NCBI GenBank assembly: GCA_005787685.1
Contig: SYAC01000044.1
Coordinates: forward strand, 1-39,419
Origin: Planctomycetia bacterium
GTDB lineage: Bacteria; Planctomycetota; Phycisphaerae; Phycisphaerales; SM1A02
DNA: 39,419 nucleotides
Reading direction: 5' to 3'
Shown here: one piece after another, positions 15,119 through 33,423 of the stretch
Layout of the letters: the number at the start of each line of letters is the position of its first letter
Numbering within the stretch: the first letter of the stretch is position 1
The notes under the pieces: generated by a model
Told to the model about the DNA's origin: nothing
Seen by the model: the letters and a program-made list of their open reading frames with translations, nothing else
Database searches by the model: none
Made by a program: the position numbers and the translations under genes

Positions 15119-15976
15119 ATGACAGATGTTCTTCTTATCGCGGATAGACGGCGCAAAGGCGTGCCCGAGGCCATTGAGGAAGTGCGCCGAATCATCACGC
15201 CGCATGGCCGCATTGTGGAGGAATTGGAAGCCGACCTGCGCCCCATTCCACCGCGAACCATATTTGATTTGGTGGTTGTGCTTGGCGGGGACGGAACGTT
15301 GATCGCGCAGTGTCGACGCTTGCTTGACCGCGGCGTGCCCATGGTGGGCTTAAACTTTGGGCGTCTTGGTTTTTTGGCGGAGTTTGATTTGGATTCGCTG
15401 CGCCAACACGCCACCATGATTTTTGGACACGACGCCATTGTGCGCAACCGCATGGTGCTTGACGCCATTGTGCGCAACGCGCGCGGTGATTTGGTGCATG
15501 AGGGTCTTGCCATCAACGAAGCCGCCGTGACCGCGGGCACTCCGTTTCGCATGATTGAACTTAAAATTTCATTTGGACGGGATCAAGGTCCGGACTTGCT
15601 TGGCGACGGCGTGATTGTGGCCACGCCCATTGGCAGCACCGCCTACAACGTCAGCGCGGGTGGACCCATTGTGCAACCCGATCTTGAGGCCATTATTGTC
15701 ACGCCCATCTGCGCCCACAGTTTGGCATTTCGCCCCATTGTCACCGCGAGCCATTTGGAGATCATGATTGAAGTGATGCGCGCCAATGATGGCTCTGCGT
15801 TGGTGCTTGATGGACAAGCGATTGTTCCGCTGAGCGCTGGCGACCGCGTGCTGGTTGGTCGCCACCATACCGCGGCAAAATTCATTGGAAATCCTGATCG
15901 AACCTATTGGGACACGCTTGCTGACACCATGCGATGGGCCGCCGCGCCCAGCTATCGCCGACCGAATTCTCCGTGA
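15119..15976 (+). CDS. nadK: NAD kinase
   Basis: This 285-residue enzyme phosphorylates NAD to NADP with ATP or polyphosphate. The family motifs are present: the GGDGT loop (56-60), the NFGRLGFLAEF segment (79-89), the Asn-Glu pair in INEAAV (133-134) and PIGSTAYNVSAGGPIV (170-185). Length is typical. It starts 15 bp after the ABC ATPase gene and precedes serS by about 80 bp in the same direction. An exact 18-bp direct repeat (15431-15448 and 15461-15478) duplicates the peptide DAIVRN at residues 105-110 and 115-120 without breaking the frame. Confidence 0.95.
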   Translation: MTDVLLIADRRRKGVPEAIEEVRRIITPHGRIVEELEADLRPIPPRTIFDLVVVLGGDGTLIAQCRRLLDRGVPMVGLNFGRLGFLAEFDLDSLRQHATMIFGHDAIVRNRMVLDAIVRNARGDLVHEGLAINEAAVTAGTPFRMIELKISFGRDQGPDLLGDGVIVATPIGSTAYNVSAGGPIVQPDLEAIIVTPICAHSLAFRPIVTASHLEIMIEVMRANDGSALVLDGQAIVPLSAGDRVLVGRHHTAAKFIGNPDRTYWDTLADTMRWAAAPSYRRPNSP

Positions 15977-16058
15977 ATTCAGCCGTGAACCCAGCCCAAC
16001 TCGCAAATCTTGCCTGCGCCAAACACGCACGCCACTTTTTTCTACACTCGTTTATTCC

Positions 16059-17462
16059 ATGATCGATATTAAAGCACTGCGTGAAGACCCAGAACGATTT
16101 AAAAATGGCGTGCGCTTAAAGCGTGCCGATGTGGACATTGACGCGCTGCTTGCCATTGACGCTCGCCGCCGCGAGTTGACTGGCGCCGTTGAAGCCAAGC
16201 GCGCCGAACAAAATAAATTCAGCAAGGAAACCGGTCCCGAGCTTGGCCGCTTGAAGGGTCAGCTGAAATTCGCAACGGAAGCCGAGCGCGAAGTGATTGA
16301 AGCCAAATTGAAAAACCTTGAGCGCCGCCCCGCGGAATTAAAATTGGAGGCCGCTGAACTGGACAAGCAACTGGCCGAGACCGGTCCCAAGTGGCACGAC
16401 TTGATGCTGCGCATTCCGCAACCGCCCGCCGCCGATGTTCCTATTGGAGCCGGCGCCGAGGACAACAAGGAAATTCGCCGCTGGAACGCGCCGCACTTTG
16501 ATCCATTGAAAAGTTTTGCAAGTCAGCGTGGCTTCAAACCAAAGACGCATTTGGAATTGGTGCGCGACCTTGGCTTAGTTGATTTTGAGCGCGGCGTGAA
16601 GATCGCGGGCACGCGCCACTATGTGCTTACCGGCCTTGGCATGAAATTGCATCAGGCCGCGCTTCGCTACGCCTTTGACTTTATAACCGAGCAGCGCGGT
16701 TTCACCGCCATGGGCGTGCCCGTGATCGTGAAGGAAGAGTGCATGCAAGGCACTGGCTTCTTTCCATTTGGGCGCGATCAGGCGTATCACATAGAGGAGT
16801 CGCGACGCGGCGCTGGCCACGATTTATTTCTGACTGGTACCGGTGAAGTTGGCCTAATGGGCTTTCACGCCGACGAAATTATTCCCATTGAGCAACTGCC
16901 GCTGAAGTACACCACGCAAAGCACTTGCTTTCGCCGCGAGGCCGGCGCGTCGGGCAAGGACACCGCGGGCTTGTATCGCATTCATCAATTTGACAAGGTT
17001 GAACAAGTTGTGATTTGCCGCGCCGACGACGCTGAAAGCCGCGGCTGGCATAAACACATGTTGGAGACGGTGGAAATGATTTTGCAAGGATTATCACTGC
17101 CGTATCGCCTACTGCAATGTTGCACTGGCGACCTTGGAATGAAGAACGAGGACATGATTGATGTTGAATGTTGGATGCCAGGCCGCGGCGCTATTGGCGC
17201 CGATGGTATTCCAAGCGGCGAATGGGGCGAAACGCATTCCGCCAGCCGTCTTGGTGATTTTCAATGTCGCAGATTGAATTTGCGCTACCGCGACGCCGAT
17301 GGAAAAATTCATATTGCATGGGCGCTGAACAACACGGTGCTTGCCAGTCCGCGCGTGCTCATTCCCATTCTGGAGTTGAATCAGAACGCGGATGGATCCG
17401 TGAATGTTCCGCATGTGTTGCGGCCGCACATGGGTGGTGTTGAGAAGATCACGCCGCGATAA
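16059..17462 (+). CDS. serS: Seryl-tRNA synthetase
   Basis: This 467-residue class II synthetase charges tRNA-Ser (and tRNA-Sec where present) with serine. Residues 1-120 form the antiparallel coiled-coil arm that contacts the long variable arm of the tRNA (MIDIKALREDPERFKNGV, then charged helices). Class II motif 2 is seen as CFRREAGASGKDTAGLYR and motif 3 near HSASRLGDFQCRRLNLR. The ATG at 16059 is supported by this canonical N-terminus; the frame is open upstream only by chance. The stop lies 5 bp from that of the convergent Gly-rich gene. Confidence 0.96.
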   Translation: MIDIKALREDPERFKNGVRLKRADVDIDALLAIDARRRELTGAVEAKRAEQNKFSKETGPELGRLKGQLKFATEAEREVIEAKLKNLERRPAELKLEAAELDKQLAETGPKWHDLMLRIPQPPAADVPIGAGAEDNKEIRRWNAPHFDPLKSFASQRGFKPKTHLELVRDLGLVDFERGVKIAGTRHYVLTGLGMKLHQAALRYAFDFITEQRGFTAMGVPVIVKEECMQGTGFFPFGRDQAYHIEESRRGAGHDLFLTGTGEVGLMGFHADEIIPIEQLPLKYTTQSTCFRREAGASGKDTAGLYRIHQFDKVEQVVICRADDAESRGWHKHMLETVEMILQGLSLPYRLLQCCTGDLGMKNEDMIDVECWMPGRGAIGADGIPSGEWGETHSASRLGDFQCRRLNLRYRDADGKIHIAWALNNTVLASPRVLIPILELNQNADGSVNVPHVLRPHMGGVEKITPR

Positions 17463-18339: not shown

Positions 18340-19125
18340 ATGAAATCACTTTCGTCGTTATTGATCACCTCAGCTGTGATCGCCGTTTCCGCAACCGCGT
18401 CCGCCGCACTTGTGGCAGGCGATATTGCGCTTGTTAGCTTTCAAGCCTCGGGCACGCCGAGCGACTCGTTTTCATTTGCAACTTTGGTGAATGTTGACGC
18501 TGGAACTGTTTTATATTTCACAGACAATGGTTTCACAACAGGGTCAGGCTTTCGTGGCGTGCTGAGTACGGACAATGATGGCAACGAAGGCGTTATAAAA
18601 TACACTGTGGGCGCAAGTGGTTTGGCAGCGGGTCAAATCGTCAGTAGCCTTTCCACAAACACCGCTAACGGCACGTGGACTTTAAGTGGTCTGATTTTCA
18701 CAAGCGGATCTGGCTCATTTGCACCGCTTAATTTCTCCGCAAGCGGCGAGCAATTGACAGTGTTGACCAGCACTAATTCCCAGCCCTTGCTGAGTGGCTA
18801 CACAGCGTTGTATAACTTTGACAACACTGGCGCGTACGAGGCGAGCACAAGTTCTTCAACTGGACAATTGGTTACTGGCCTTGTTGCTGGAACCAGTGCA
18901 GTTTTGCTTGGTTCCCCATTGAATGCCAACTTTGCCAATTTCAACTTTGGTGCATTTAGTGGTAGCGCGGATCGCGACACTTGGCTCGCCCGTATGGGAA
19001 ATAGCGCCAATTGGACAACAAGTGTTGCTACAACGAATACCTCTGATGGCTCATTCAACATTCCAGCTCCGGGCGCGGCGGCGTTGCTTGGTTTGGCTGG
19101 TTTGATCGCGCGTAGACGACGCTAA
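18340..19125 (+). CDS. Secreted protein with PEP-CTERM-like C-terminal anchor
   Basis: The 261-residue protein has a signal peptide (residues 1 to about 22, ending SATASA) and a beta-rich, Ser/Thr/Gly/Asn-rich exported part. It ends in a short anchor (residues 242-261): a Pro-Ala-Pro-Gly motif, a hydrophobic helix (AAALLGLAGLIA) and four Arg. This tripartite ending resembles PEP-CTERM sorting signals, but with PAPG in place of PEP; such endings are common in Phycisphaerae. A good Shine-Dalgarno (AGGAG, 18328-18332) lies 7 bases before the ATG. It is followed by a strong terminator and preceded by a collapsed copy of itself. A surface or matrix role is likely; the exact function is unknown. 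Confidence 0.88.
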   Translation: MKSLSSLLITSAVIAVSATASAALVAGDIALVSFQASGTPSDSFSFATLVNVDAGTVLYFTDNGFTTGSGFRGVLSTDNDGNEGVIKYTVGASGLAAGQIVSSLSTNTANGTWTLSGLIFTSGSGSFAPLNFSASGEQLTVLTSTNSQPLLSGYTALYNFDNTGAYEASTSSSTGQLVTGLVAGTSAVLLGSPLNANFANFNFGAFSGSADRDTWLARMGNSANWTTSVATTNTSDGSFNIPAPGAAALLGLAGLIARRRR

Positions 19126-19669: not shown

Positions 19670-22042
19670 TTATCGCGGACCGCTTTGAAAGCCGCCAGTC
19701 TTTTTAAAGCCAGCTTTTTTGAAGCCGCCTTTTTTGAAGCCGCCGCCTTTGAAACCGCCACCTTTGAAACCGCCACCTTTGAAACCGCCACCTTTGAAAC
19801 CGCCACCACTTTTAAATCCGCCACCGGAACCGCCGCCGCCAGAAGATGATCCGCCGCGATAACCGCCACCGGAACCGCCCCCGCCAGAAGACGATCCGCC
19901 GCGATAACCGCCACCGGAACCGCCGCTTGATGAGCCGCCACTTGGCGCGCCCTTTCTAAATTCGCCGCCTGATGGTGGGCCCTTTCGGAAACCGCCGCCA
20001 GAAGAAGATTTGCCGCGGTAGCCGCCACCAGAACCGCCGCGTGATGCGCCGCCACTTGGCGCGCCTTTTCTAAAGCCGCCGCCGGAACCGCCGCCGCTTG
20101 GGGCGCCAGAAAATCCGCGTGCTTTGGCTTGTTGAAAGCCTCCGCGCTTACCAAAGCCAACATGGCCGCCATCACGCGCGCCTTGCGCGGCGCCCGCACC
20201 ACGCGCAACATTTGCGCCGTCGTGCTCGCCAAAATGACCTCCACCGTCGCGGGCATTGCCACCATTTTCACCTCCAGCAGAACCGCCACTGCCAGCGGCC
20301 TCGCCAGTGCCCCCCGCTTGAAATGGATGAGGCGTGCGCGGCGAATATGTTTTCTTACCGTAGGCTTTTTTCTCGCCAAAAGTTTTTTTCTCAAACGGCT
20401 TTTTGCCAGAGGCTTTCTTTTCAAAGGCGCGCTCGGCAAATGATTTCTTGCCCTGCGGTTTATTGTCGGCACCCGCGGTAACATCCGCGCCTGCATCGGC
20501 AACTACGCGCTTGGGGCGGGAATCGGACTTGGCGCTACGCGGATATTCCTTGCGCACGGTCACATCATTGGGTTGATCTTGTCGATCTGGAGCGAACATT
20601 GGCTCACGAATAATTGGCGCGCGTTCGCGCTTTGGTCGATCGATTGCGGCGCCATCACCCGCCGCGTCGCGCGGTTGTGAAGAAGAAACACGGCCATCGC
20701 CTCCACCAATGCGACCAGCGCTTTCATCACGCGCACTACGATCGCCGCCCCTGCCTGCGCCCTCGCGGCGTGTGCCACGATTGCGTTGACGACCACCATC
20801 GCGCGTTGCGCCACGATCACCACGACCGCGACCTTCGCGACTTCTGCGACCACCCCGATCACCGTCGTTGGAATCATCAAGCACGGCGCCTGGAACTGGC
20901 TTCATTTCTGGCAGTTCCGCGGGCATTTTGCCGCGCGGAATGGGCTTGCGAATTAGGCGCTCAACATTGCGCAAAAGATTGCGCTCGGAGTCATCACAAA
21001 AGGCGATGGCAATTCCAACCGCACCCGCGCGTCCAGTTCGACCAATGCGATGCACATAGGCCTCGGCCTCAATTGGCAAATCGTAATTAATGACATGCGT
21101 GATTCCATCCACATCAAGTCCACGCGCGGCGACATCGGTTGCCACAAGAACTTTGGTGCGTCCAGAACGGAAACCATCCAGCGCTTTGGTGCGTTGACTT
21201 TGCGCCTTGTTGCCGTGAATGGCGTCGGCTTTTTCACCGCACGCCCGCAGACGCTTGGTGATCTTGTCGGAGTTGTGCTTGGTCTTCATGAACACCAACA
21301 CACGCTTGACCTCGGGGTCCCTGAGAATGTGGCCCAGTAGCGCGAACTTGCGGTCACGCGAAACTTGATACAGAAGTTGCTCAATTTTGGGGGCGGCGCT
21401 GGCCACGGTGTGCACTGCGACACGCACTGGATTGCTGAGCAAGGAGCCGGCAAGACCCGCGATAGCCGGCGGCATGGTGGCGGAAAACAGCAGCGTTTGC
21501 CGCTTTGTAGAGAGCATTTTGGCAATGTCGCGAATGGGATCAATGAAACCCATGTCAAGCATGCGGTCGGCCTCGTCCAGAACAAAGGTGTGGATGTGCG
21601 CCAGCGAAATAATTCCTTGATCGATCAAGTCAATTAAGCGGCCAGGCGTGGCCACCAGAATGTCAACGCCGCGTTCAAGCGCGCGCTCTTGGTGATACTG
21701 ACTGACGCCACCAAAAATGACCGTGTGACGCAGGCCAGTACCGCGACCGTACGTGGCGAAACTTTCGGCGATCTGCGCCGCAAGCTCGCGCGTTGGCGAA
21801 AGAATGAGCGCGCGTGGCTCGAACAATTTCTTGGACAACTTTTCATTTTGCAGCTTCTGAATAATTGGAAGCGCGAAGGCCGCGGTTTTTCCGGTGCCGG
21901 TCTGTGCAATGCCAAGCACATCTTTGCCCGCGAGAGCCGGAGGAATGGCTTGCGCCTGAATGTCGGTGGGCGTGGTGTAGCCCTCCTCTGTCAGCATGCG
22001 AAGTGTCGAATCGTCTAAACCAAGTGTTGAAAATAGGGACAA
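19670..22042 (-). CDS. DEAD-box RNA helicase (RhlE-like) with long Gly-rich tail
   Basis: This 790-residue ATP-dependent RNA helicase has all core motifs in residues 1-380: Q motif GYTTPTDIQ (21-29), AQTGTGKT (46-53), PTRELA, DEAD (156-159), SAT (187-189), ARGLD and HRIGRTGRAG (331-340). A disordered tail of about 400 residues follows, first Arg/Asp/Gly-rich, then with GGGYRGGSSS and FKGGG repeats. Such tails bind RNA and promote condensates in cold-shock and ribosome-assembly helicases. The start is a TTG at 22042 with AAAGG just upstream; the next in-frame ATG lies beyond the N-terminal motif region. The rhlE-like assignment is by core similarity only. Confidence 0.93.
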   Translation of the reverse strand: MSLFSTLGLDDSTLRMLTEEGYTTPTDIQAQAIPPALAGKDVLGIAQTGTGKTAAFALPIIQKLQNEKLSKKLFEPRALILSPTRELAAQIAESFATYGRGTGLRHTVIFGGVSQYHQERALERGVDILVATPGRLIDLIDQGIISLAHIHTFVLDEADRMLDMGFIDPIRDIAKMLSTKRQTLLFSATMPPAIAGLAGSLLSNPVRVAVHTVASAAPKIEQLLYQVSRDRKFALLGHILRDPEVKRVLVFMKTKHNSDKITKRLRACGEKADAIHGNKAQSQRTKALDGFRSGRTKVLVATDVAARGLDVDGITHVINYDLPIEAEAYVHRIGRTGRAGAVGIAIAFCDDSERNLLRNVERLIRKPIPRGKMPAELPEMKPVPGAVLDDSNDGDRGGRRSREGRGRGDRGATRDGGRQRNRGTRREGAGRGGDRSARDESAGRIGGGDGRVSSSQPRDAAGDGAAIDRPKRERAPIIREPMFAPDRQDQPNDVTVRKEYPRSAKSDSRPKRVVADAGADVTAGADNKPQGKKSFAERAFEKKASGKKPFEKKTFGEKKAYGKKTYSPRTPHPFQAGGTGEAAGSGGSAGGENGGNARDGGGHFGEHDGANVARGAGAAQGARDGGHVGFGKRGGFQQAKARGFSGAPSGGGSGGGFRKGAPSGGASRGGSGGGYRGKSSSGGGFRKGPPSGGEFRKGAPSGGSSSGGSGGGYRGGSSSGGGGSGGGYRGGSSSGGGGSGGGFKSGGGFKGGGFKGGGFKGGGFKGGGFKKGGFKKAGFKKTGGFQSGPR
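19741..19800. repeat. 15-bp tandem repeat in the helicase tail
   Basis: Four units of CGCCACCTTTGAAAC (the first with one change) encode repeated Phe-Lys-Gly-Gly-Gly on the minus strand. Diverged units flank it on both sides, and a 42-bp repeat coding GGGYRGGSSSGG-type peptide lies at about 19830-19920. The repeats keep the frame and probably vary in number. Confidence 0.85.
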
Positions 22043-22213: not shown

Positions 22214-23461
22214 TTACAAGGCTGTGGCGATCCATTTCATGATGTTGTCGGCAAGCGCGTCAAAGGCAGTCACGGACATTTCAATGTGCTCTTGCAAGGT
22301 GTCCTCCAATTTGTTGTGGCTAATGCCGTGAAGACTTTGCACAAACATCATGGTTGTTGGAATACCAATTTGCGCCATGGACGCCGCGTCGTGCAGTGGT
22401 CCCGACGGCAACCGAAATTGCGTGCCCGTTATCTTTTGAATCGCCGCGTCGCACAGATCCGTAAGTTGCGGATGAAACGGAATGGGCTCGATCTGCCACA
22501 AGCGTTCCCAATGCACGGAGACATTTCCCTCGCGCGCGAACTTTTCACTGGCCTCGTGCGCGGCGCGCAACATGTTGGCCAGCGCCGCAGGATCAAGATG
22601 GCGTTGATCAAGCGTGATGCGGCAATCTTCCACCACACTGGTCACAATGTTTGGCTTGGTGGTGCAAGAACCAATGGTGCACACGCCTCCACATTTTTCC
22701 GTGATGGCGTAAATTTCCTGACCCATACGCGCTGCCGCAAGAAAAGCGTCGCGGCGGCGATTCATAGGCGTGCTGCCAGAGTGCGCTGCCTGTCCGTGAA
22801 ATACAATGGCATGGCGCTCCACACCGTATGTTCCAAGCACAGCACCAAGCGCAAGATTTTTATCGAGCAGAACCGGTCCTTGTTCAATGTGCAGCTCCAT
22901 GTAGGCCGCAGCATTTTTGAGTTCGCCGTGGCTGTCTTTCACGCGCTCAAATTCAATACCAACATTGTTGAGTGCGGCGGGAAGTGTCACGCCATCCTTA
23001 TCCGTAAGCACGCGCGCCTCATTCATGTCAAGCGTGCCAGCGCAGGCTGATGAACCAAACAAACTTTTTCCAAAGCGTGCGCCTTCTTCATCGGCCCAAT
23101 CCACTAGGCGAATGGTGACGGGCGGCCTGCCGTTGAACTGCGTATTGATACGGCGCAGAATTTCCAAACCCGCCAGCACATTCAAGCATCCGTCGAGCCA
23201 ACCACCGTTTGGAACGGAGTCCATGTGGCCGCCAATCAGAAGTTCCTTGGAAGAATCGCCGCGCAAGGTGCTCCACAAATTCCCCGCGGCGTCGATATGG
23301 GTTGCAACCGGCAACTGCGCTAGTTTTTTGGTGAACCAAGAACGCGTGGTGCTCCACATGGGTGTGAATGCCACACGCTGCGCGCCGTCCGCATCGCTGG
23401 TGAGGGCGCGCAAATCCTTCAATTCATCCACGGTGCGTTTGGGCTGCAGTGCGCTTAACAT
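22214..23461 (-). CDS. pydC: N-carbamoyl-beta-alanine amidohydrolase (beta-ureidopropionase, M20 type)
   Basis: This 415-residue zinc amidohydrolase belongs to the hydantoinase/carbamoylase branch of the M20 family. Metal and catalytic residues are visible: GGHMDSVPNGG (His79, Asp81), LDGCLNVLAGLE (Asp90), DWADEEGARFG (Glu125, Glu126) and ELHIEQGPVL (His191). Relatives act on N-carbamoyl amino acids, allantoate or ureidoglycolate. Here the divergent neighbours encode dihydropyrimidine dehydrogenase and dihydropyrimidinase. The likely reaction is therefore N-carbamoyl-beta-alanine to beta-alanine, CO2 and ammonia, and the 2-methyl analogue from thymine. The substrate comes from gene context; the family alone would not settle it. 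Confidence 0.88.
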   Translation of the reverse strand: MLSALQPKRTVDELKDLRALTSDADGAQRVAFTPMWSTTRSWFTKKLAQLPVATHIDAAGNLWSTLRGDSSKELLIGGHMDSVPNGGWLDGCLNVLAGLEILRRINTQFNGRPPVTIRLVDWADEEGARFGKSLFGSSACAGTLDMNEARVLTDKDGVTLPAALNNVGIEFERVKDSHGELKNAAAYMELHIEQGPVLLDKNLALGAVLGTYGVERHAIVFHGQAAHSGSTPMNRRRDAFLAAARMGQEIYAITEKCGGVCTIGSCTTKPNIVTSVVEDCRITLDQRHLDPAALANMLRAAHEASEKFAREGNVSVHWERLWQIEPIPFHPQLTDLCDAAIQKITGTQFRLPSGPLHDAASMAQIGIPTTMMFVQSLHGISHNKLEDTLQEHIEMSVTAFDALADNIMKWIATAL

Positions 23462-23604
23462 GTGCGCAAGTGTGGCTCAAAAATCACGCCGCGTCGAGTG
23501 CGTACGCGCCAAATCTTACAAATGTGGACGCTGAGATAAAGTGACCTCAACCAAAACATGTTGGCTTTACGCACAAATTAACGATACCATTGATCGTATT
23601 CACG
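23462..23604. promoter_or_regulatory. Divergent control region of the pyrimidine degradation cluster
   Basis: This 143-bp region separates the carbamoylase gene from preT. A short inverted repeat ACGAT-N7-ATCGT (23581-23597) lies 8-24 bases before the preT start and could be an operator. No regulator gene is present in the cluster. No promoter with two good boxes was identified; TTGGCT near 23564 is a weak -35 candidate for preT. Confidence 0.35.
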
Positions 23605-25083
23605 ATGTCTTTCAAGCCCCTTCTTCCTATTGAAGCAATTACTGCCAATATGGCGGATCTGCACTTGCCCCTACGGCCACAAGAAGCCATTGTGGAAGCC
23701 GACCGCTGCCTGTACTGCTTTGACGCGCCCTGCATTGCAGCGTGCCCCACTGGTATTGATGTGCCAGGATTTATAAAGAAGATCGCTGCGCGCAATGAGG
23801 TTGGCGCCGCGAAAACAATTTTAACCGCCAACATTCTCGGCGCCTCGTGCGCGCGCGTGTGCCCCACCAAGGTGTTGTGCGAGGGCGCATGCGTATTGCA
23901 TGACCGCGACCAGAAGCCCATTGAAATTGGCCGCCTACAACGCTTTGCCACGGACTATGTGAGCGAGCGAAAAATTTCGGTGCTGAAGCCACCCGCCACA
24001 AAAAACGGAATTGCCATTGCCGTGATTGGCGCGGGTCCCGCGGGTCTGGGCTGCGCCGCGGAGTTGGCGCAACTTGGCTACAGCGTGACCGTGTTTGAAA
24101 AGGAAAAATTGCCGGGTGGATTAAACACCTACGGCATTGCGCTGTACAAAATGACACCCGCCTTCAGCCTGGAAGAAATTGAGTTGGTCAAAAGTTTGGG
24201 CGTGCAGATTCAATGCGGCGTAAACATTGGCAAAGACAAATCCATTGCCGATATGGAGCGTGAATTTAAGGCGATTTTTGTGGCGATTGGTTTGGGCGCT
24301 GGAAATCGCTTAGGTATTCCCGGAGAGGATTTGCCGCAGGTGGTTGACGCGCTGACATTTATCAAGCGCCTGCACAGCGAGCCACTGAACAGCGTGGCGG
24401 TTGGCGAACGCGTAGTGGTGATTGGGTGCGGCAACACCGCCGTTGACTCCGTAACGCAATCCATTCGTCTTGGCGCCAAACAGGTCAGCGTGGTGTACCG
24501 CCGTGGCCAAAATGAAATGAGCGCGTACGACTTTGAATACGCCCACGCCAAACATGACGGCGCCACTTTTTTATTCCACTGCATGCCACTAGAAGTTGTA
24601 GCCAGTGGCGGCCATGTCAGCGGCATCAAACTTGTCAAGACAAAGGTGAACGCCGCGGGCAACTTAGAAGCCGTCGCGGGTTCAGAATGGATTGAGCCAT
24701 GCGACATGATTGTGAAAGCCGTTGGCCAAGAGAAGCAAGTGCCGTTTCTCAAAAAATTATTTCCCACGCTTGCCATGAATAAGCGCGGAGGAATTGTCAC
24801 CGACGCACTGACCGGCGCCACGAGCCTGCCGCATGTGTTCACCGGTGGCGATTGCTCTAACGCTGGGCGCGAAGTGGTCAACGCCGTGGGCGAGGGCAAG
24901 AAAGCGGCGCATGGGATTCACCAGTTTGTAACCAAGAAACAGCCGGAATTTCCTATGCAACATTCGCGCATGGGCCACAAGGCGGGCGCCAGTGGCTCTG
25001 GTTTGCTGCACCCAATTCGCGCGCATGAACTCGAGGCCGCGCTTGCCAAAAGACTCTCCGCCCAAGGCAAGGCAAACAAATAA
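23605..25083 (+). CDS. preT: Dihydropyrimidine dehydrogenase, FAD/Fe-S subunit
   Basis: This 492-residue flavoprotein passes electrons from NAD(P)H to PreA, which reduces uracil and thymine. The N-terminal part carries two sets of Fe-S cysteines (CLYCFDAPCIAACPTGID, then CARVCPTKVLCEGAC), as in the GltD/PreT family. The FAD-binding motif is AVIGAGPAGLGCAAEL, and a second nucleotide fold is seen at VVVIGCGNTAVDS. The ATG at 23605 (MSFKPLLP) is preferred over a TTG at 23590. Only 2 bp separate its stop from preA, so the two subunits are cotranscribed. Length and motifs match the bacterial two-subunit enzyme. Confidence 0.93.
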   Translation: MSFKPLLPIEAITANMADLHLPLRPQEAIVEADRCLYCFDAPCIAACPTGIDVPGFIKKIAARNEVGAAKTILTANILGASCARVCPTKVLCEGACVLHDRDQKPIEIGRLQRFATDYVSERKISVLKPPATKNGIAIAVIGAGPAGLGCAAELAQLGYSVTVFEKEKLPGGLNTYGIALYKMTPAFSLEEIELVKSLGVQIQCGVNIGKDKSIADMEREFKAIFVAIGLGAGNRLGIPGEDLPQVVDALTFIKRLHSEPLNSVAVGERVVVIGCGNTAVDSVTQSIRLGAKQVSVVYRRGQNEMSAYDFEYAHAKHDGATFLFHCMPLEVVASGGHVSGIKLVKTKVNAAGNLEAVAGSEWIEPCDMIVKAVGQEKQVPFLKKLFPTLAMNKRGGIVTDALTGATSLPHVFTGGDCSNAGREVVNAVGEGKKAAHGIHQFVTKKQPEFPMQHSRMGHKAGASGSGLLHPIRAHELEAALAKRLSAQGKANK

Positions 25084-25085
25084 TC

Positions 25086-26402
25086 ATGGCTGACCTTTCA
25101 AGCAATTTCGCTGGCATAAAATCACCCAACCCATTTTGGGTGGCGTCTGGTCCACCTTCCAACACCGCCTACCAAACTCACCGCGCGTTTGAAGCTGGCT
25201 GGGGCGGCCTGGTGTGGAAGACCATCGGTACACCTATTGTGAATGTGGCATCGCGCTACTCGGCGTTGAACTTTGGCAATCAGCGCATGATTGGTTTCAA
25301 CAACATTGAGTTGATTAGCGACCGCGCGCCCGAAACAAATTTCCTGGAGATCGCCGAGGTCAAAAAGCGTTGGCCCAATCACGCGGTCATTGCCTCCTTG
25401 ATGGTGGAGACGCGCGAAGAGTGGCGCGAGTTTGTGAAGCGCGCCGCCGACTGCGGCGCCGACGGCATTGAACTGAACTATGGTTGCCCGCACGGAATGT
25501 GCGAGCGTGGAATGGGTAGCGCCGTGGGCCAGCAACCGGAAGTGGCCGAGCGCATTACCAGTTGGGTTATGGAAACCGCCACGAGTCCCGTGATAGTGAA
25601 ATTAACACCAAATATCACTGATATCACCGCGGCCGCGCGCGCCGCCAAACGCGCTGGTGCCAACGCTATTTCGCTGATCAACACCATCAATTCCATCACC
25701 AATGTGAACTTGGACACCTTTGTGCCCGAGCCAACGGTGGCGGGTCTTTCCTCACATGGCGGCTACTGCGGTCCCGCCGTCAAGCCCATCGCGCTGAACA
25801 TGGTGCAATGTTGCGCCGCCGACCCAAAAGTTGCCCTTCCCATTTCTGGAATTGGCGGCGTAGCCAATTGGCGTGACGCGGCCGAGTTCATCGCGCTCGG
25901 GGCTACCAATGTGCAAGTGTGCACCGCCATCATGCACTACGGCTTTCGAATTGTTCAGGACATGAATGAAGGCCTAAGCACCTACTTGGACAGCAAGGGC
26001 ATGCAGAGCCTGGAGGAACTTGTTGGCAAGAGCGTGCGCAATGTGAACGAGTGGAAGGACCTTGACTTGAACTTTCAACGCGTGGCGCGCATTGAGTACG
26101 ACAAATGTATTGGCTGCAATCTGTGCTACATAGCGTGTGAAGATGGCGCGCATCAATGCATTGATTTGGTGGCGCCCGAAAGTATTGGCGTTGATCTTGG
26201 TCCAGGCCGCGTACCCCACAAGGTGCTGCCAAAAATCCGCGAGGACGATTGCGTGGGTTGCAATTTGTGCTCGCTGGTGTGCCCGGTTCACAATTGCATC
26301 ACCATGGTTGAGATAAAAAATGACAAACCACGCATGTCGTGGAGCGAACTTCAAGACAGGGTGGCGCGCGGCGAAATGAAGCCAATTCCGCCACATCCGT
26401 GA
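25086..26402 (+). CDS. preA: Dihydropyrimidine dehydrogenase, catalytic FMN/Fe-S subunit
   Basis: This 438-residue subunit reduces uracil to dihydrouracil and thymine to dihydrothymine. Residues 1-310 form a dihydroorotate-dehydrogenase-like barrel. The catalytic loop ELNYGCPHGMCERGMG keeps the proton-donor Cys (Cys134, equal to Cys671 of the mammalian enzyme) and the following Pro-His. Late barrel motifs SGIGGVANW and LGATNVQVCTAI bind the flavin phosphate. The C-terminal ferredoxin domain has two cysteine sets, CIGCNLCYIAC and CVGCNLCSLVCPVHNC, for two 4Fe-4S clusters. It lies 2 bp after preT. Confidence 0.95.
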   Translation: MADLSSNFAGIKSPNPFWVASGPPSNTAYQTHRAFEAGWGGLVWKTIGTPIVNVASRYSALNFGNQRMIGFNNIELISDRAPETNFLEIAEVKKRWPNHAVIASLMVETREEWREFVKRAADCGADGIELNYGCPHGMCERGMGSAVGQQPEVAERITSWVMETATSPVIVKLTPNITDITAAARAAKRAGANAISLINTINSITNVNLDTFVPEPTVAGLSSHGGYCGPAVKPIALNMVQCCAADPKVALPISGIGGVANWRDAAEFIALGATNVQVCTAIMHYGFRIVQDMNEGLSTYLDSKGMQSLEELVGKSVRNVNEWKDLDLNFQRVARIEYDKCIGCNLCYIACEDGAHQCIDLVAPESIGVDLGPGRVPHKVLPKIREDDCVGCNLCSLVCPVHNCITMVEIKNDKPRMSWSELQDRVARGEMKPIPPHP

Positions 26403-26581
26403 GGCGTGCGGCGATTCAATACCTGACTGATAGCGCCCATGGTCATGCGGCATCGCGAGTTATTTAAGCCTGAATGGCAACCTCAATCATGCAGCGCGGT
26501 TGCTTAGGACCCAACATCAAGCTCTCTAACATGAAGCGCAATCAGATAGACTACTTTCTCGCATCTTTTGAAGGAAATTCC

Positions 26582-28078
26582 ATGTCCACAACCATGACCG
26601 CCCTTACTCCCTGTCCAATGTTCTTAGACGGCAAGTGGATCACGCCCCACATTGCGTCCACGCCAGTGTTCAATCCGTCCACAGGCGAGGTGATTGCAGA
26701 GTGCCCCGCTGGTGGCGCGGCTGAAGTGAATGCCGCCGTTGAAAGCGCGCACGCCGCATTTCCCGCGTGGCGCGACACGCCGCCTATGGAGCGCGCGCGC
26801 GTGTTCTTTAAGTATCGCCAACTGGTCGAGTCCAACTTTGACCGACTGTGTAAATGCGTTTCACGCGAGCATGGAAAAACATTGGTGGAGGCGCGTGGAA
26901 GTATTTTTCGCGGCCTTGAGAACATTGAATACGCGTGCGGCATTCCATCGCTACTCATGGGCGACACACTGGAGATTGCGCGTAGCGTTGACTGCGAAAC
27001 CATGAATCAACCCCTGGGCGTGTGCGTGGGAATTACGCCGTTTAACTTTCCAGCCATGGTTCCGCTGTGGATGTTTCCAGTGGCGCTGGCTTGCGGAAAC
27101 ACCTTTGTTTTAAAGCCCAGCGAGAAGGTTCCTTTAACCGCGAATGTTCTGGTTGAGCTGCTGCACGAGGCCGGCTTGCCCAAGGGCGTGTTGAATTTGG
27201 TGCATGGCGGCCGCGAATGCGTTGACACTTTGCTGCGTCATCCAAAAGTCAAGGCGATATCTTTTGTGGGTTCCACGCCCATTGCAAAATATATTTATGA
27301 AACTGGCACACAACACGGCAAGCGCGTGCAAGCTAACGGCGGCGCTAAAAATTACATTGTGATTATGCCCGACGCGGATATGCCCAAGACCGTAGAGGCA
27401 CTTTCAACCGCGGCCTTTGGTTGCGCCGGCGAGCGTTGCATGGCTGGCTCCACAGCGCTGACCGTTGGCGCGGCCGCCGACAAATTGTTGCCCTCGCTGG
27501 TTGAAGCGGCGCGCAACATTCGTGTGGGTCCAACCGACCGCCCCACTCAACCTGACATGGGACCTGTGATTACCGCAGCGCACCGCGACAAGGTCACAAG
27601 CCTGGTGACTAGCGGCGAGAAGGAAGGCGCCAAAGTGATTTGCGACGGACGCGGCGTGAAGATTGCCGACGCGCCAAAAGGTTTTTATGTGGGCGCGACC
27701 ATTGTGGATCATGTGGTGGACGGAATGAATATTGCCAAAGAGGAAGTCTTTGGTCCGGTGCTGAATGTGATGCGCATGGACGATTTGAACATGGCCATTG
27801 AGTTGGCCAACCGCTCAAATTACGGCAATGGCGCCGCCATTTTCACCCAAAATGGAAACGCCGCGCGCGAGTTCAAGCAACGCGTGAAGGCTGGCATGGT
27901 TGGCATTAATGTGGGCGTGCCCGCCACCATGGCCATGTTCCCATTCACTGGGTGGGATGAATCCTTCTATGGCGACCTGCACATTCAAGGCCGCGAGGGC
28001 GTGCAGTTCTTTACGCAACAAAAGGTGGTTTCAACGCGTTGGTTTGGCGGCAATGTAGGCGATGTGTGGCGCAAGTGA
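26582..28078 (+). CDS. mmsA: (Methyl)malonate-semialdehyde dehydrogenase, CoA-acylating
   Basis: This 498-residue aldehyde dehydrogenase converts methylmalonate semialdehyde to propionyl-CoA, or malonate semialdehyde to acetyl-CoA, releasing CO2 and NADH. The MmsA-type active site GCAGERCMAG holds the catalytic Cys286; PFNFPAMVPLWMFP and FVGSTPIAKYIY are also typical of this branch. The ATG at 26582 has AAGGA 6 bases upstream, so it is chosen over open codons back to 26474. Next to pyrimidine degradation genes, it would take the semialdehydes made by the aminotransferase downstream. A gap of about 180 bp separates it from preA, so an extra promoter is possible. Confidence 0.93.
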   Translation: MSTTMTALTPCPMFLDGKWITPHIASTPVFNPSTGEVIAECPAGGAAEVNAAVESAHAAFPAWRDTPPMERARVFFKYRQLVESNFDRLCKCVSREHGKTLVEARGSIFRGLENIEYACGIPSLLMGDTLEIARSVDCETMNQPLGVCVGITPFNFPAMVPLWMFPVALACGNTFVLKPSEKVPLTANVLVELLHEAGLPKGVLNLVHGGRECVDTLLRHPKVKAISFVGSTPIAKYIYETGTQHGKRVQANGGAKNYIVIMPDADMPKTVEALSTAAFGCAGERCMAGSTALTVGAAADKLLPSLVEAARNIRVGPTDRPTQPDMGPVITAAHRDKVTSLVTSGEKEGAKVICDGRGVKIADAPKGFYVGATIVDHVVDGMNIAKEEVFGPVLNVMRMDDLNMAIELANRSNYGNGAAIFTQNGNAAREFKQRVKAGMVGINVGVPATMAMFPFTGWDESFYGDLHIQGREGVQFFTQQKVVSTRWFGGNVGDVWRK

Positions 28079-28079
28079 T

Positions 28080-28105
28080 GTGCGGCGTGTGGACGCTTCA
28101 CGCAC
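28080..28105 (+). promoter_or_regulatory. Hairpin between mmsA and the dihydropyrimidinase gene
   Basis: GTGCG-GCGT pairs with ACGC and CGCAC around a GTGG loop, with a 4-base bulge (TTCA). It begins 2 bases after the mmsA stop codon. A T-run appears only about 20 bases later, so it is a weak terminator at best and may rather be an mRNA-stability element. Confidence 0.35.
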
Positions 28106-28175
28106 GCGAATTTGAATTTGTGATTTTTTGAGTTGTTGGGCAACGGACACTCGAAAAGACATCTAGGAAATCAAT

Positions 28176-29558
28176 ATGAGCATTCTTATTCGCGGCGGCG
28201 AAATTGTGACGGACAGCAATCGCTTTGTGGCGGACATTTTTTGCAAGCATGAAACCATAACCGCCATTGGCGTCAACTTGACTGCGCCCGAAAACGCCAC
28301 CGTGATCGAGGCCAAAGGCAAATATGTTTTTCCGGGCTTCATTGATCCACATGTCCACATTTACTTGCCGTTCATGGGAGCGTTCGCCAAGGACACCTAT
28401 GAAACCGCCAGCCGCGCCGCGCTGATGGGCGCAACCACCACGCTAATTGAAATGTGTTGCCCCTCGCGCGCCGACGATCCGATTGCGGCGTTTGATATGT
28501 GGATGGCAAACGCAGTGGGTAAGTCCGCCTGCGACTTTTCATTTCACATGGGCGTGACCAAATTTGACGACACCACCGCGGCCAAGTTGCAAGCAATTGT
28601 GGCGCGTGGCATAAGTAGTTTGAAGGTTTTTTTGGCTTATAAAGGCGCGTTTGGCATTGATGACACGGAGCTGTACAACACCTTGAAGTTTGCCAAGAAT
28701 CACGGGCTCATGGTGACGGCGCACTGTGAAAATGAAACGCTGGTGTCCGAGCGCTGCAAGGAATTGCTGGCCGCGGGTAAGACTGATCCAGCGCAGCACC
28801 ATGAAAGTCGCCCCCCGATCGTGGAAGCCGAAGGTGTGCACCACTTGATGACCTTCGCCGAGTTGACCGGCGCCGCCACCTACATTGTGCATTTAAGTTG
28901 CCAAGAGGCTTTGAACGAGGCGCTGTGCGCGCGCCGGCGTGGCGTGCGTGTGGGCATTGAAACGCTGATTCAATATTTGGTGCTGGACAAAAGTTACGCC
29001 GAGCTTCCAAACTTTCAGGGCGCAAAGTTTGTCATGTCACCCCCGCTACGCGATGTGAAGAATCAATCCGTGCTGTGGAATGGCTTGCAAAGTGGCGACA
29101 TTGACACGGTGGCCACCGACCACGCGCCATTTGATTTTGCAAATCAAAAATCAATGGGGGAACATGACTTCACCAAAATTCCAAACGGTATTCCTTCGCT
29201 TCAGGAGCGCGTGCATTTGCTGTACAGCTACGGCGTGGTGCCGGGAAAAATAACCTTGGAGCAAATGGTGAGGGTGGCCAGCACCAATGTGGCCAAGCAG
29301 TTTGATTTGTATCCACGCAAAGGCGCCATTGCGGTTGGCAGCGACGCCGACTTGGTGGTGTTTGACCCCGACTACCGCGGCGTGATTAGCGCCCAAACAC
29401 AGGCAATGAATGTGGATTACAGCGCGTTTGAGGGCTGGAAGATTCAGGGTCGGGCAAGCGTGGTCACGGTGCGCGGCGAAATCGCCGTGCGCGATGGAAA
29501 GTTTGTGGGCTCGCAGAACCGCGGGCAATTTTTACGGCGCAAGCCAAGCCACCTTTAA
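28176..29558 (+). CDS. hydA: Dihydropyrimidinase (D-hydantoinase family)
   Basis: This 460-residue amidohydrolase opens the ring of dihydrouracil or dihydrothymine to give the N-carbamoyl beta-amino acid. All zinc ligands of the family are visible: DPHVH (His59, His61), the lysine carbamylated to bridge the metals (SLKVFLAYKG, Lys150), His183 (TAHCEN), His239 (VHLSC) and Asp315 (ATDHAPF). AGGAAA lies 6-12 bases before the ATG. It sits between mmsA and the transporter gene. Hydantoinases of the same fold can act on other cyclic amides, but the presence of preTA beside it favours pyrimidines. Confidence 0.94.
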   Translation: MSILIRGGEIVTDSNRFVADIFCKHETITAIGVNLTAPENATVIEAKGKYVFPGFIDPHVHIYLPFMGAFAKDTYETASRAALMGATTTLIEMCCPSRADDPIAAFDMWMANAVGKSACDFSFHMGVTKFDDTTAAKLQAIVARGISSLKVFLAYKGAFGIDDTELYNTLKFAKNHGLMVTAHCENETLVSERCKELLAAGKTDPAQHHESRPPIVEAEGVHHLMTFAELTGAATYIVHLSCQEALNEALCARRRGVRVGIETLIQYLVLDKSYAELPNFQGAKFVMSPPLRDVKNQSVLWNGLQSGDIDTVATDHAPFDFANQKSMGEHDFTKIPNGIPSLQERVHLLYSYGVVPGKITLEQMVRVASTNVAKQFDLYPRKGAIAVGSDADLVVFDPDYRGVISAQTQAMNVDYSAFEGWKIQGRASVVTVRGEIAVRDGKFVGSQNRGQFLRRKPSHL

Positions 29559-29599
29559 AGTTGTGTTGCTGGCGTCGGCGACGACTTCGCCATGCTTGC

Positions 29600-29630
29600 G
29601 AGCCATTGAGGACAAATTGGCTCAATGCTC
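29600..29630 (+). promoter_or_regulatory. Hairpin in front of the transporter gene
   Basis: GAGC(c)ATTGAG pairs with CTCAATGCTC: ten base pairs with one bulged C and a 10-base loop. It ends about 31 bases before the NCS1 transporter start. No T-run follows, so it is not an intrinsic terminator. It may stabilise or process the mRNA, or control transporter translation. Confidence 0.45.
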
Positions 29631-29661
29631 GGCTTCGTTCTTGCCGATACATAGGAACTTT

Positions 29662-31164
29662 ATGGAGAATCAGCACAAAGCTTCCACAATCGCCATGACT
29701 GGTATTGAAGACTCTCATCTTTGCAACGACGACCTTGCGCCAGTGTCGCTGTCACAGCGCAAATGGGGAATGTGGAGCATTGCCGCACTGTGGATTTCTA
29801 TGGCGGCATGCGTACCAACCTACATGCTGTCTTCGTCGCTGATTGAGGGCGGCATGAATTGGTCGCAGGCCATATTCACGGTGTTTCTAGGAAACCTGAT
29901 CGTCGTCATTCCCATGGTGCTCAACGCGCACGCCGGCACAAAATATGGAATTCCATTTCCAGTTTTTTGCCGCGCATCATTTGGCATTTTGGGCGCAAAC
30001 ATTCCCGCGCTCATGCGCGCCGTGGTGGCGTGCGGTTGGTTTGGCATTCAAACATGGATTGGCGGCGAGGCCATATTCAAGATTGGCTCCACATTTTTCC
30101 CGGCGCTGATTGATCCAGCGTGGGCGTCCACCTTGGGCATTACCCTGCCGCAATTCGCGTGCTTCATGTTGTTCTGGTTCATCAATATGGTTGTGGTTTA
30201 CAGGGGAATTGACTCCATTCGCATTTTGCTGCAAATCAAGGCGCCGCTGTTAATCATTCTTGGAATTGCGTTGCTGTGGTGGGCGTTCGACGCAGCTGGC
30301 GGCTTTGGACCAATCTTGTCGCAACCTTCCGCATTCGCTCCAGGGCAACCTAAAGAGGGTCAATTTTATTCCTTCTTCTTTCCAGCACTCACTGGCATGA
30401 TTGGTTTCTGGGCCACCCTGTCGCTGAACATTCCAGACTTCTCTCGCTACGCGCACACGCAGCGTGACCAAATTGTGGGACAATTCGCAGGCTTGCCATT
30501 CACTATGGCGCTATACGCGTTCATTGGCGTGGCCGTGACCAGCGCCACAACCATTATTTATGGCAAGGCCATTTGGGACCCCGTGAATGTGTTGATGCAA
30601 TTCAAGAACCCAGTGGTGTTGATTGTCGCCATGATCGCATTGTGCATTGCGACGCTGGCCACCAACTTGGCAGCCAATGTGGTGAGCCCCGCAAATGACT
30701 TTGCCAATCTGGCGCCACGCGCAATTTCATTTCGCACCGGCGGATTGATCACGGGCGTCATTGGCATTCTGATGATGCCCTGGAAACTCATCGCCGATCC
30801 ATCGGGCTACATCTTTGTGTGGCTGGTTGGATATAGCGCGCTGCTTGGCCCCATTGGGGGCATTCTGATTTGTGATTACTTTGTCATTCGCCGCGCCAAA
30901 TTGAGCTTGCCCGACCTCTATCAACACCATGGCCAATATCGTTATCACGGCGGGTTCAGCGTCACAGCCATAGTGGCACTTTTAGCGGGAATTGCCCCAA
31001 ATATTCTAGGCTTCTTGGGAACCATCAAGGTCATTGACGCCGCCACCGTGGGTCATTTCTGGATGCACTTATACAGTTATTCCTGGTTCGTTGGCTTTGG
31101 CGTTGCCTTTGCGGTGTACGGCGCACTGCGCGCCATCAAACCGCTGCACAATCACAACGCCTAA
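29662..31164 (+). CDS. NCS1 family nucleobase or hydantoin transporter
   Basis: This 500-residue inner-membrane protein has about twelve hydrophobic spans and fits the nucleobase:cation symporter-1 family (Mhp1, PucI, FurD type). Family features include a conserved early span with GTKYGIPFPVFCRASFG, the VACGWFGIQTWIGG segment and LNIPDFSRYAHTQ, close to the NCS1 signature. The ATG at 29662 follows TAGGAA by 6 bases. Within the pyrimidine cluster the most likely substrates are uracil, thymine or the dihydropyrimidines. The choice between base and hydantoin cannot be made from sequence alone. Confidence 0.92.
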   Translation: MENQHKASTIAMTGIEDSHLCNDDLAPVSLSQRKWGMWSIAALWISMAACVPTYMLSSSLIEGGMNWSQAIFTVFLGNLIVVIPMVLNAHAGTKYGIPFPVFCRASFGILGANIPALMRAVVACGWFGIQTWIGGEAIFKIGSTFFPALIDPAWASTLGITLPQFACFMLFWFINMVVVYRGIDSIRILLQIKAPLLIILGIALLWWAFDAAGGFGPILSQPSAFAPGQPKEGQFYSFFFPALTGMIGFWATLSLNIPDFSRYAHTQRDQIVGQFAGLPFTMALYAFIGVAVTSATTIIYGKAIWDPVNVLMQFKNPVVLIVAMIALCIATLATNLAANVVSPANDFANLAPRAISFRTGGLITGVIGILMMPWKLIADPSGYIFVWLVGYSALLGPIGGILICDYFVIRRAKLSLPDLYQHHGQYRYHGGFSVTAIVALLAGIAPNILGFLGTIKVIDAATVGHFWMHLYSYSWFVGFGVAFAVYGALRAIKPLHNHNA

Positions 31165-31255
31165 CGCGTACGCTTGCATATTTCCACAATCGTCATATGG
31201 GAACTATGCTTACAGCGTGAGTATACAAACATCAAACTCCACTTCTCATTTCGCT

Positions 31256-32587
31256 ATGCAACTTCCACCCTTCGCCTACACGCCCAAGCCGTACACCGGA
31301 CCCTCGCCTGAGGAGGTGCTTGCCATGCGCAAGCACAATTTGTCGCCGGCTATTTTTCACTACTACAAAAATCCAATCATGATTGTGGAGGGCAAGTCGC
31401 AATACTTGTTCGACAACAATGGCCGCCGCTACTTGGATTGTTTTGGTGGCATTGTCACGGTGAGCGTTGGTCATTGCCATCCTGAAGTGACCAAGGCGGC
31501 GATTGAGCAACAAGAAACCATTGTGCACACCACCACGATTTATTTGAATCCACAAGTGGCGTTGTTCGCCAAGGAACTCGCCGCCAAGATGCCTGGCGAT
31601 TTAAAGGTGTGCTACTTCGTGAACTCCGGTTCCGAAGCCAACGATTTGGCCATCACCATGGCGCGCGCCGCCACCGGCAATTATGATGTGATTGCTCTGC
31701 GAAACGCCTATCACGGCGGAAGTCCTGGCGCCATGGCGCTGACCTCGCACCACACATGGAAGTTCAATGTGCCCCACGGATTTGGTGTGCAACACGCCGT
31801 GATGCCAGACACCTACCGCGGACAATTTGGCGCAAACGATCCCGACGCTGGCCGCAAGTACGCGCTTGATGTGAAGAGCCTCATTCAGTTTGGAACATCT
31901 GGACAAGTGAGCGCGTTCATTGCCGAAAGTATTCAGGGCGTGGGCGGCACGGTGGTGTTGCCCAGTGGCTATTTGAAAAATGCCTACGAGCATGTGCGCG
32001 CCGCAGGCGGCCTGTGCATTGCGGATGAAGTGCAAGCCGGCTTTGGAAGAACGGGCACGCACTTTTGGGGATTTGAAACTCAAGGCGTAACGCCCGACAT
32101 TGTCACCATGGCCAAAGGTATTGGAAACGGTTGCCCGCTTGCCGCGGTGGTGACCACGCCGACCATTGCCAAGAGCATCGCCAACCGAATTCACTTCAAC
32201 ACATTTGGCGGCAACCCGGTTTCATGCGCGCAGGGCCGCGCGGTATTGCGCGTGATTGAGCGCGAAGGTTTGCAGGCAAATTGCCTTCAAATTGGCGCGC
32301 AATTGAAGGCGGGCTTCGCCAAACTTGCCGAAAAACATTCGCTCATTGGCGAAGTGCGCGGCATGGGTTTAATGCTTGGAATTGAATTGGTCAAGGACCG
32401 AACCACCAAGGAGCCAGCCAAGGAGGAATGCGCCGCCGTGTTTGAAAAGTGCAAGGACCTTGGACTTCTCATTGGCAAGGGTGGCTTGTTTGGCAACACG
32501 CTTCGTATTAAACCACCCATGTGCATCAACAGCGCCGACGCCAATTTTATTGTTGGCGTGCTTGATCAAGCGCTGGCCAGTGTTTAA
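31256..32587 (+). CDS. Class III aminotransferase, AGXT2-like (beta-alanine / 3-aminoisobutyrate)
   Basis: This 443-residue PLP enzyme shows [10 protein letters not shown] (cofactor phosphate site), [23 protein letters not shown] with Asp257 for the pyridine nitrogen, and Lys287 ([10 protein letters not shown]), which forms the Schiff base. The overall pattern is that of alanine-glyoxylate aminotransferase 2. In animals that enzyme also transaminates (R)-3-aminoisobutyrate, the end product of thymine breakdown. In this cluster it would turn beta-alanine or 3-aminoisobutyrate into the semialdehyde used by MmsA. No Shine-Dalgarno is clear; a GTG at 31217 is an alternative start. The assignment to beta-amino acids is inferred from context. 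Confidence 0.9.
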
Positions 32588-32661: not shown

Positions 32662-33423
32662 ATGCCATGCACACTTGAAGTTCCTGTTGACTCGCTGGAG
32701 TCAGCGCTGCTTGCCGCGCCCTTTGCCACGCGCTTGGAGTTATGCCATGACTTGGCCAGCGAAGGTTGGACGCCAAAAGCAAGCCTTATTGAGCGTGTTC
32801 GTGCAGTGGTGCCAACGCACTTGGTGGCCATGATTCGGCCACGCTTTGCGGATTCGCCGCGCACGCTCACGGTGGAATCTTTTGTTGCTAGCAAGCGCGT
32901 TCTAGATGCGTCCAAAGAAGAAATAAAATCGGCGGCGTCGGCTGGAGCGCATTCTGTGGCTATTGGCTTACTTGACGCGCAAGGACATGTTGACATGGAT
33001 GCGTGCGGCGAACTTGCGGAGTTGGGGCGCTCCTTCAAACTTGAAGTTGCCTTCCTGCGCACATTTGATTTGCTCACCGATCGCGCGCGCGGCATGCGCG
33101 ACATCAGCGCGCTAGGCATGAAACGCGTTGTCACCGCTGGCGTGTTGGGTTGGGACGCCGCGGTTGCCACGCTTGAGCAACGCATTGTGCAATTACAGAA
33201 CGACTCCGCCAATGCCGCGGCCGCCGCGCGGTTGCCGACTGGCACACACGCACAACTTGGCGGCACTGGCATGCCTGTTGAAATTGTTCCAGGCGGCGGC
33301 GTTCGGGCCATAAACGCCAAACAGTTTCTGGGCGTATCCCCCCACTTGCATGCCTCATGCCGGCGCGGCGGCGTGATCAATCTGCAGGAATTGCAACAAC
33401 TGCACGCCCTGCTCAAGCCTTAA
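32662..33423 (+). CDS. cutC: CutC family protein (TIM barrel)
   Basis: This 253-residue protein matches the CutC family: LEVPVDSLESAL at the start, TRLELCHDLASEGWTPK, an AMIRPR motif, the AGAHSVAIGLLDAQGHVDMD segment, a TSG-type turn and a late EIVPGGGVRAIN. CutC was linked to copper tolerance in E. coli, but its biochemical function is disputed. It starts 75 bp after the aminotransferase gene on the same strand and may be cotranscribed, though no role in pyrimidine use is known. It converges with the MgtC gene, with 18 bp between the stops. Confidence 0.88.
   Translation: MPCTLEVPVDSLESALLAAPFATRLELCHDLASEGWTPKASLIERVRAVVPTHLVAMIRPRFADSPRTLTVESFVASKRVLDASKEEIKSAASAGAHSVAIGLLDAQGHVDMDACGELAELGRSFKLEVAFLRTFDLLTDRARGMRDISALGMKRVVTAGVLGWDAAVATLEQRIVQLQNDSANAAAAARLPTGTHAQLGGTGMPVEIVPGGGVRAINAKQFLGVSPHLHASCRRGGVINLQELQQLHALLKP

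Follow-up and report, generated by a model that had tools for sequence, protein, structure and literature searches.

What does a complete pyrimidine degradation cluster do in a planctomycete that keeps pantothenate synthetase (PanC) and shows no aspartate decarboxylase (PanD)? The question is raised by contig SYAC01000044.1 from a Planctomycetia bacterium of the class Phycisphaerae (assembly GCA_005787685.1), a 2.37 Mb draft genome in 65 contigs. The window analyzed here is that whole contig, positions 1–39419, and the cluster comprises seven intact open reading frames (ORFs) at 22214–32587, with an M20-family gene on the minus strand and six divergent genes on the plus strand in the order preT, preA, mmsA, dihydropyrimidinase, NCS1 permease and class III aminotransferase, separated by gaps of 2 to about 180 bases. 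Judged from its sequence, the cluster very likely encodes reductive uracil/thymine degradation (Pyd), and its beta-alanine most likely also feeds pantothenate and coenzyme A (CoA), in addition to supplying nitrogen and carbon. The operon alone is ordinary and of a known kind; its class-wide exclusion with PanD is the new point. The features of the cluster are as follows.

22214..23461, minus strand: M20-family amidohydrolase, probable beta-ureidopropionase (N-carbamoyl-beta-alanine amidohydrolase), from TIGR01879, aligned active-site residues and context
23462..23604, no strand: divergent intergenic region from the M20 gene to preT, from ORF ends and the conserved PreT start
23605..25083, plus strand: PreT, Fe-S/FAD/NAD(P)H subunit of dihydropyrimidine dehydrogenase (DPD), from Fer4_20, Pyr_redox_2 and structure matches
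25086..26402, plus strand: PreA, FMN catalytic subunit with two 4Fe-4S motifs, from NF006183, Fer4_21 and the active-site Cys motif aligned to DPD
26582..28078, plus strand: MmsA, CoA-acylating (methyl)malonate-semialdehyde dehydrogenase, from TIGR01722 and 5tjr
28176..29558, plus strand: dihydropyrimidinase / D-hydantoinase, from TIGR02033 and 1gkp
29662..31164, plus strand: NCS1-family nucleobase permease, from TIGR00800 and Mhp1
31256..32587, plus strand: class III aminotransferase, probable beta-alanine / 3-aminoisobutyrate transaminase, from Aminotran_3, with the role taken from context

The start of PreT at 23605 is common to three relatives (L095–L097) in an alignment of the divergent region with its conserved coding ends; no regulatory site was identified in that alignment, beyond which none was sought. 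The predicted starts of MmsA (26582), the permease (29662) and the aminotransferase (31256) are chosen ATG codons. The original prediction, made from the DNA letters, had listed these seven genes at their correct positions and had proposed a complete reductive uracil/thymine pathway, which family matches and a recurring gene order now support well; it had missed the link to pantothenate. In the proposed pathway, the NCS1 permease would bring pyrimidine bases into the cell, PreTA would reduce uracil or thymine with NAD(P)H and dihydropyrimidinase would open the ring. The M20 enzyme would then remove the carbamoyl group as CO2 and NH3, leaving beta-alanine or 3-aminoisobutyrate, which the aminotransferase and MmsA would convert to acetyl-CoA or propionyl-CoA, and beta-alanine would also go to PanC for pantothenate and CoA. 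The release of two ammonia equivalents, as previously proposed, was loosely put; one ammonia (with CO2) would leave at the ureidopropionase step, and the second pyrimidine nitrogen would be transferred to an amino acid by transamination rather than freed as ammonia.

Exclusion between PanD and the pyrimidine pathway

PanC needs beta-alanine. The window's genome contains PanC and gave no match to PanD; with PanC kept, PanD lacking and a beta-alanine–making pathway present, the genome would most simply use that pathway as its source. In order to place this pattern within the class, 298 genomes drawn evenly from its larger membership were compared, and a genome was counted as pathway-positive when PreA, dihydropyrimidinase or both scored over cut-off. 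PreA did so in 65 genomes (36 full-length and 29 short copies) and dihydropyrimidinase in 68, while PanD was found in 199 and PanC in 287. PanD was present in 4 of the 69 pathway-positive genomes and in 195 of the 229 pathway-negative ones, and the corresponding figures were 4 of 60 and 152 of 171 among the 231 genomes with completeness of 90% or more and contamination of 5% or less. When labels were dealt within families, 27.4 co-occurrences of PanD and the pathway were expected and 4 observed (p = 8e-21, with kinship inside families left in place).

Within families the exclusion persists. All nine families holding both kinds of genome showed a lower PanD rate in the pathway-positive members, and both states also occur inside at least two genera: in g2, G084 has PanD and G209 and G246 have the pathway, and in g84, G048 has PanD and G157 (65% complete) has PreA. 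The window's family of 21 genomes divides into 13 with the pathway only, 7 with PanD only, 1 with both and none with neither. All 10 genomes with a match to the window's M20 at E ≤ 1e-60 lack PanD. Two genomes, G177 and G228, seemed to be exceptions by PreA; both carry dihydropyrimidinase, which in G177 adjoins an aminotransferase, a permease and part of a nitrilase. A PanC tree was built from 61 of the 287 PanC-positive genomes, comprising the window's whole family of 21 and 40 more from f7, f16, f18 and f21. Along it the pathway changed no fewer than 12 times, and PanD no fewer than 10 times. Independent pairs were drawn at random 200 times from its well-supported branches; in none of these sets did PanD change in the same direction as the pathway, and it either differed in the opposite direction or showed no difference. 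Two signs of a PanD replacement, PanC without PanD in one genome and a complementary presence/absence pattern among relatives, are found here.

Several observations weigh against a pantothenate role. A single gene absence carries little weight in the window's genome because it is 91% complete. With a median p of 0.06, the sign test on the tree is borderline. Among the M20 matches and loci examined, only 31 of the 69 pathway-positive genomes showed a ureidopropionase candidate, either M20 or nitrilase in type. The pathway genes are dispersed in many of these genomes, and the loci of family f7 mostly show PreA or dihydropyrimidinase with no other pathway genes nearby. Dihydropyrimidinase stands alone on its stretch in G228 and G257. 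Four genomes carry both PanD and the pathway, and 34 of the 298, including 24 from f14, f18 and f21, carry neither, so a third source of beta-alanine must exist; one of the 34, G074, carries an M20 relative. The count covers PanD and Pyd, with pyridoxal phosphate (PLP)-type decarboxylases, polyamine routes and uptake lying outside it. Finally, the operon itself holds two consumers of beta-alanine, the aminotransferase and MmsA.

An alternative is a purely catabolic cluster, one supplying pyrimidine nitrogen and carbon in genomes that lost PanD for another cause, such as beta-alanine uptake or another decarboxylase. In its favor, the aminotransferase and MmsA would route beta-alanine into central metabolism, and the 34 genomes with neither system indicate that other sources exist. 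We nevertheless regard this explanation as unlikely, because PanD is rarer with the pathway in every mixed family, g2 and g84 each contain both states, and PanC is kept. A double role, as vitamin precursor and as nitrogen and carbon supply, fits both the PanD pattern and the presence of the beta-alanine–consuming enzymes.

Assignment of the enzymes

Profile searches recovered two marks of a Pyd cluster, a dihydropyrimidine dehydrogenase (PreT with PreA) and a dihydropyrimidinase. PreA matched NF006183 with 654 bits (cut-off 335) and Fer4_21 in Pfam, and its motif NYGCPHGMCERGMG aligns with NLSCPHGMGERGMG of mammalian DPD, in which the motif Cys is replaced by Ala in the 1h7x entry. PreT passed the Pfam models Fer4_20 and Pyr_redox_2, while none among its 25 best NCBIfam models reaches cut-off; among solved structures it matched 4ylf_B, titled dihydropyrimidine dehydrogenase subunit A, with 305 bits, and it resembles the N-terminal part of mammalian DPD (7m31, 225 bits). 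MmsA scored 646 bits with TIGR01722 (cut-off 448.5) and 540 bits with the structure 5tjr, and methylmalonyl-CoA mutase, which we count in favor of the pathway, was found in the window's genome. The permease passed TIGR00800 (393 bits, cut-off 353), and dihydropyrimidinase passed TIGR02033 (535 bits, cut-off 393), a model that cannot tell dihydropyrimidinase from D-hydantoinase.

The aminotransferase passed Pfam Aminotran_3. It could instead be a phospho-lyase or act on another substrate, in which case the cluster would stop at beta-alanine. Among solved structures it comes closest to ethanolamine-phosphate phospho-lyase (6tor, 386 bits), the next match (267 bits) is another phospho-lyase entry, and none among its 25 best NCBIfam models passes its cut-off. 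In many loci, however, the gene accompanies those for MmsA and dihydropyrimidinase, and the R-3-aminoisobutyrate transaminase AGXT2 belongs to the same broad class as the class III aminotransferases. We consider a phospho-lyase or other-substrate enzyme improbable, somewhat more so than a purely catabolic cluster.

The substrate of the M20 enzyme is not readable from family models or sequence alone. It passed the broad hydantoinase/carbamoylase family model TIGR01879 (287 bits, cut-off 204), and its best-scoring NCBIfam model, named allantoate amidohydrolase, gave 344 bits, 55 short of the cut-off of 399. Among solved structures it scored 193 bits with 5tp4, 187 with L-carbamoylase and 177 with yeast beta-alanine synthase. 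His, Asp and Glu residues at positions 79, 90, 125, 126, 191, 227 and 382, which align with metal-binding residues and the catalytic Glu in known enzymes, are invariant in 88 of 88 relatives, as is Arg287; these 88 rows required 75% query coverage and 35% identity, leaving out truncated copies and distant second copies. Two features argue against a ureidopropionase. The enzyme scores lower with 8c46, a bacterial N-carbamoyl-beta-alanine amidohydrolase (156 bits), than with L-carbamoylase, and position 274 is Thr in all 88 relatives and Asn in yeast beta-alanine synthase, L-carbamoylase and AllC.

Gene context points the other way. Eight genomes of the window's family have full-length PreA, and M20 occurs in two of them, the window's genome and G197. 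The other six carry between PreA and dihydropyrimidinase a nitrilase-type enzyme, 85–90% identical to the copy in G161, which is named a candidate ureidopropionase from its sequence. This replacement favors the M20 enzyme as beta-ureidopropionase, which on gene context is its probable function. An allantoate enzyme is further at odds with the missed curated cut-off and with the window's neighboring genes, which are pyrimidine genes; the other loci were queried for the window's genes and the nitrilase only.

That the whole cluster degrades hydantoins or allantoin, as the M20 score nearest to allantoate amidohydrolase and the closest solved relatives of the permease (Mhp1 hydantoin permease, 149 bits) and of dihydropyrimidinase (1gkp hydantoinase, 602 bits) might suggest, is very improbable, since no role for PreT and PreA is known in such pathways, TIGR03178, the model for allantoinase, stays below its cut-off on dihydropyrimidinase (269.5 bits against 358) while the dihydropyrimidinase model passes, and the M20 gene accompanies reductase genes in 56 of 80 loci and alternates with the nitrilase-type enzyme. 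The original prediction had named a firm placement of the hydrolases with hydantoin or allantoate enzymes as evidence against it; dihydropyrimidinase does not fall with allantoinase, and M20 is undecided by sequence, with context in favor of ureidopropionase.

Related clusters and descent of the operon

Relatives of the M20 gene were compared at the loci of the best 80 of 551 confirmed matches in named genomes. The four loci closest by M20 (90–91%) are titled Planctomycetia in two cases and uncultured bacterium in the other two. A search for the same gene order, which had been suggested with the original prediction, found the window's seven-gene order in 10 of the 80 loci, of which 8 are titled Verrucomicrobiota, one Planctomycetota and one uncultured. 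Chance assembly of the cluster is excluded because the same genes occur in the same order in other phyla. In 12 further loci all partners are present and a one-subunit reductase replaces PreTA, and 9 of these 12 keep the window's layout. The reductase genes on the compared stretches are of the PreA type in 26 loci and of the short one-subunit type in 30, and of the 32 loci whose two flanks each reach 5 kb, 25 have a reductase. Against a constant association, 24 of the 80 loci show no reductase on the stretch, including the other 7 with flanks of this length.

The short PreA relative that replaces PreTA lacks the 4Fe-4S tail (L083 at 15353–16357, L087 and L090–L094), and no PreT match was found near it on the stretches examined. 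We take its C-terminal tail, YFTTHADLV.RQ in most copies, to recall that of plant PYD1, a one-subunit dihydropyrimidine dehydrogenase; the window differs in having PreTA.

A second, distant M20 match (28–31% identity) was observed in five loci titled as Verrucomicrobiota members (L119, L124, L145, L147 and L150), accompanied in all but L119 by a distant dihydropyrimidinase-like match. These second copies possibly belong to another carbamoyl or hydantoin pathway.

The descent of the operon was examined on a PreA tree of 58 rows, a quick tree with SH-aLRT support only. A protein entered the trees and residue counts only with 75% query coverage and at least 35% identity (30% for dihydropyrimidinase and 29% for the aminotransferase), and Verrucomicrobiota PreA rows were gathered via the M20 gene, which places other cluster types of that phylum outside the tree. 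The window's PreA belongs to a group of 23 rows (support 99), each of which has M20 close by; 14 of them are titled Verrucomicrobiota. PreA from the window's own genus (G155) and from five other family members forms a separate group with nitrilase clusters (support 100), so that one same-genus and five same-family genomes (L033–L035 and L037–L039) carry a differently descended, nitrilase-type cluster. The simplest reading is operon transfer between phyla. An exception among the M20-linked rows is the PreA of G156 (L062), which lies outside the window's PreA group.

Three neighboring genes of the window were also noted. A CutC-family gene at 32662–33423 directly follows the aminotransferase, with a Pfam match over residues 4–178 of 253. 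It was considered as part of the operon and set aside; only the window passed the filter of 75% length and 35% identity, and few of the compared stretches reach past the aminotransferase. The minus-strand gene at 19670–22042 has the motifs of a DEAD-box helicase, and its product ends in a very long stretch rich in Gly, built from GGFK and GGYRG units that nearly repeat. The gene at 18340–19125 encodes a secreted-looking protein with what is presumably a PEP-CTERM-like C-terminal sorting signal.

Relation to known systems and implications

Bacterial Pyd clusters composed of PydA1/PydA2, PydB, PydC, PydD and MSDH are described in PMC7332683. Their steps are those proposed for the window, and like it they divide dihydropyrimidine dehydrogenase between subunits and finish with a semialdehyde dehydrogenase. 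In the window, the M20 gene that is the candidate for ureidopropionase is transcribed divergently and the cluster includes an NCS1 permease; the introduction of that paper announces a discussion of Firmicutes. The closest precedent for a pantothenate role is Rhizobium etli CFN42, which has no panD and makes beta-alanine by AmaB, the ureidopropionase of the uracil pathway; according to PMC7142369, mutant and complementation established that the amaB mutant is a beta-alanine auxotroph. Like the reading proposed for the window, this is a panD-less genome with beta-alanine from the uracil pathway, although R. etli is an alphaproteobacterium with a mutant, whereas the planctomycete link is a class-wide presence/absence pattern known from genomes alone.

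The original prediction had known of no detailed description of such a cluster in Phycisphaerae. One sentence of PMC6461901 mentions pyrimidine degradation enzymes in a freshwater family of the class (Nemodlikiaceae), and the terms pantothen, uracil and alanine had no match in its main text. By titles and the starts of abstracts, the open-licence literature yielded no earlier report of PanD exclusion with uracil degradation in planctomycetes, and the accessible parts of PMC11136935 and PMC13212565 contain nothing on PanD versus uracil degradation in these bacteria.

Taken together, it is rather likely that this class has repeatedly switched the beta-alanine source for CoA between aspartate decarboxylase and uracil breakdown, that several versions of the operon, with either PreTA or a one-subunit reductase and with either M20 or a nitrilase, are interchangeable, have moved in part horizontally and do the same job, and that a catabolic pathway has become essential for a vitamin in these genomes. 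The exclusion with PanD would offer a test case of how, by swapping a catabolic operon, an essential cofactor pathway comes to draw on a different precursor source in many lineages. A practical caution is that panD-less genomes should not be called pantothenate auxotrophs before they have been checked for the Pyd pathway.

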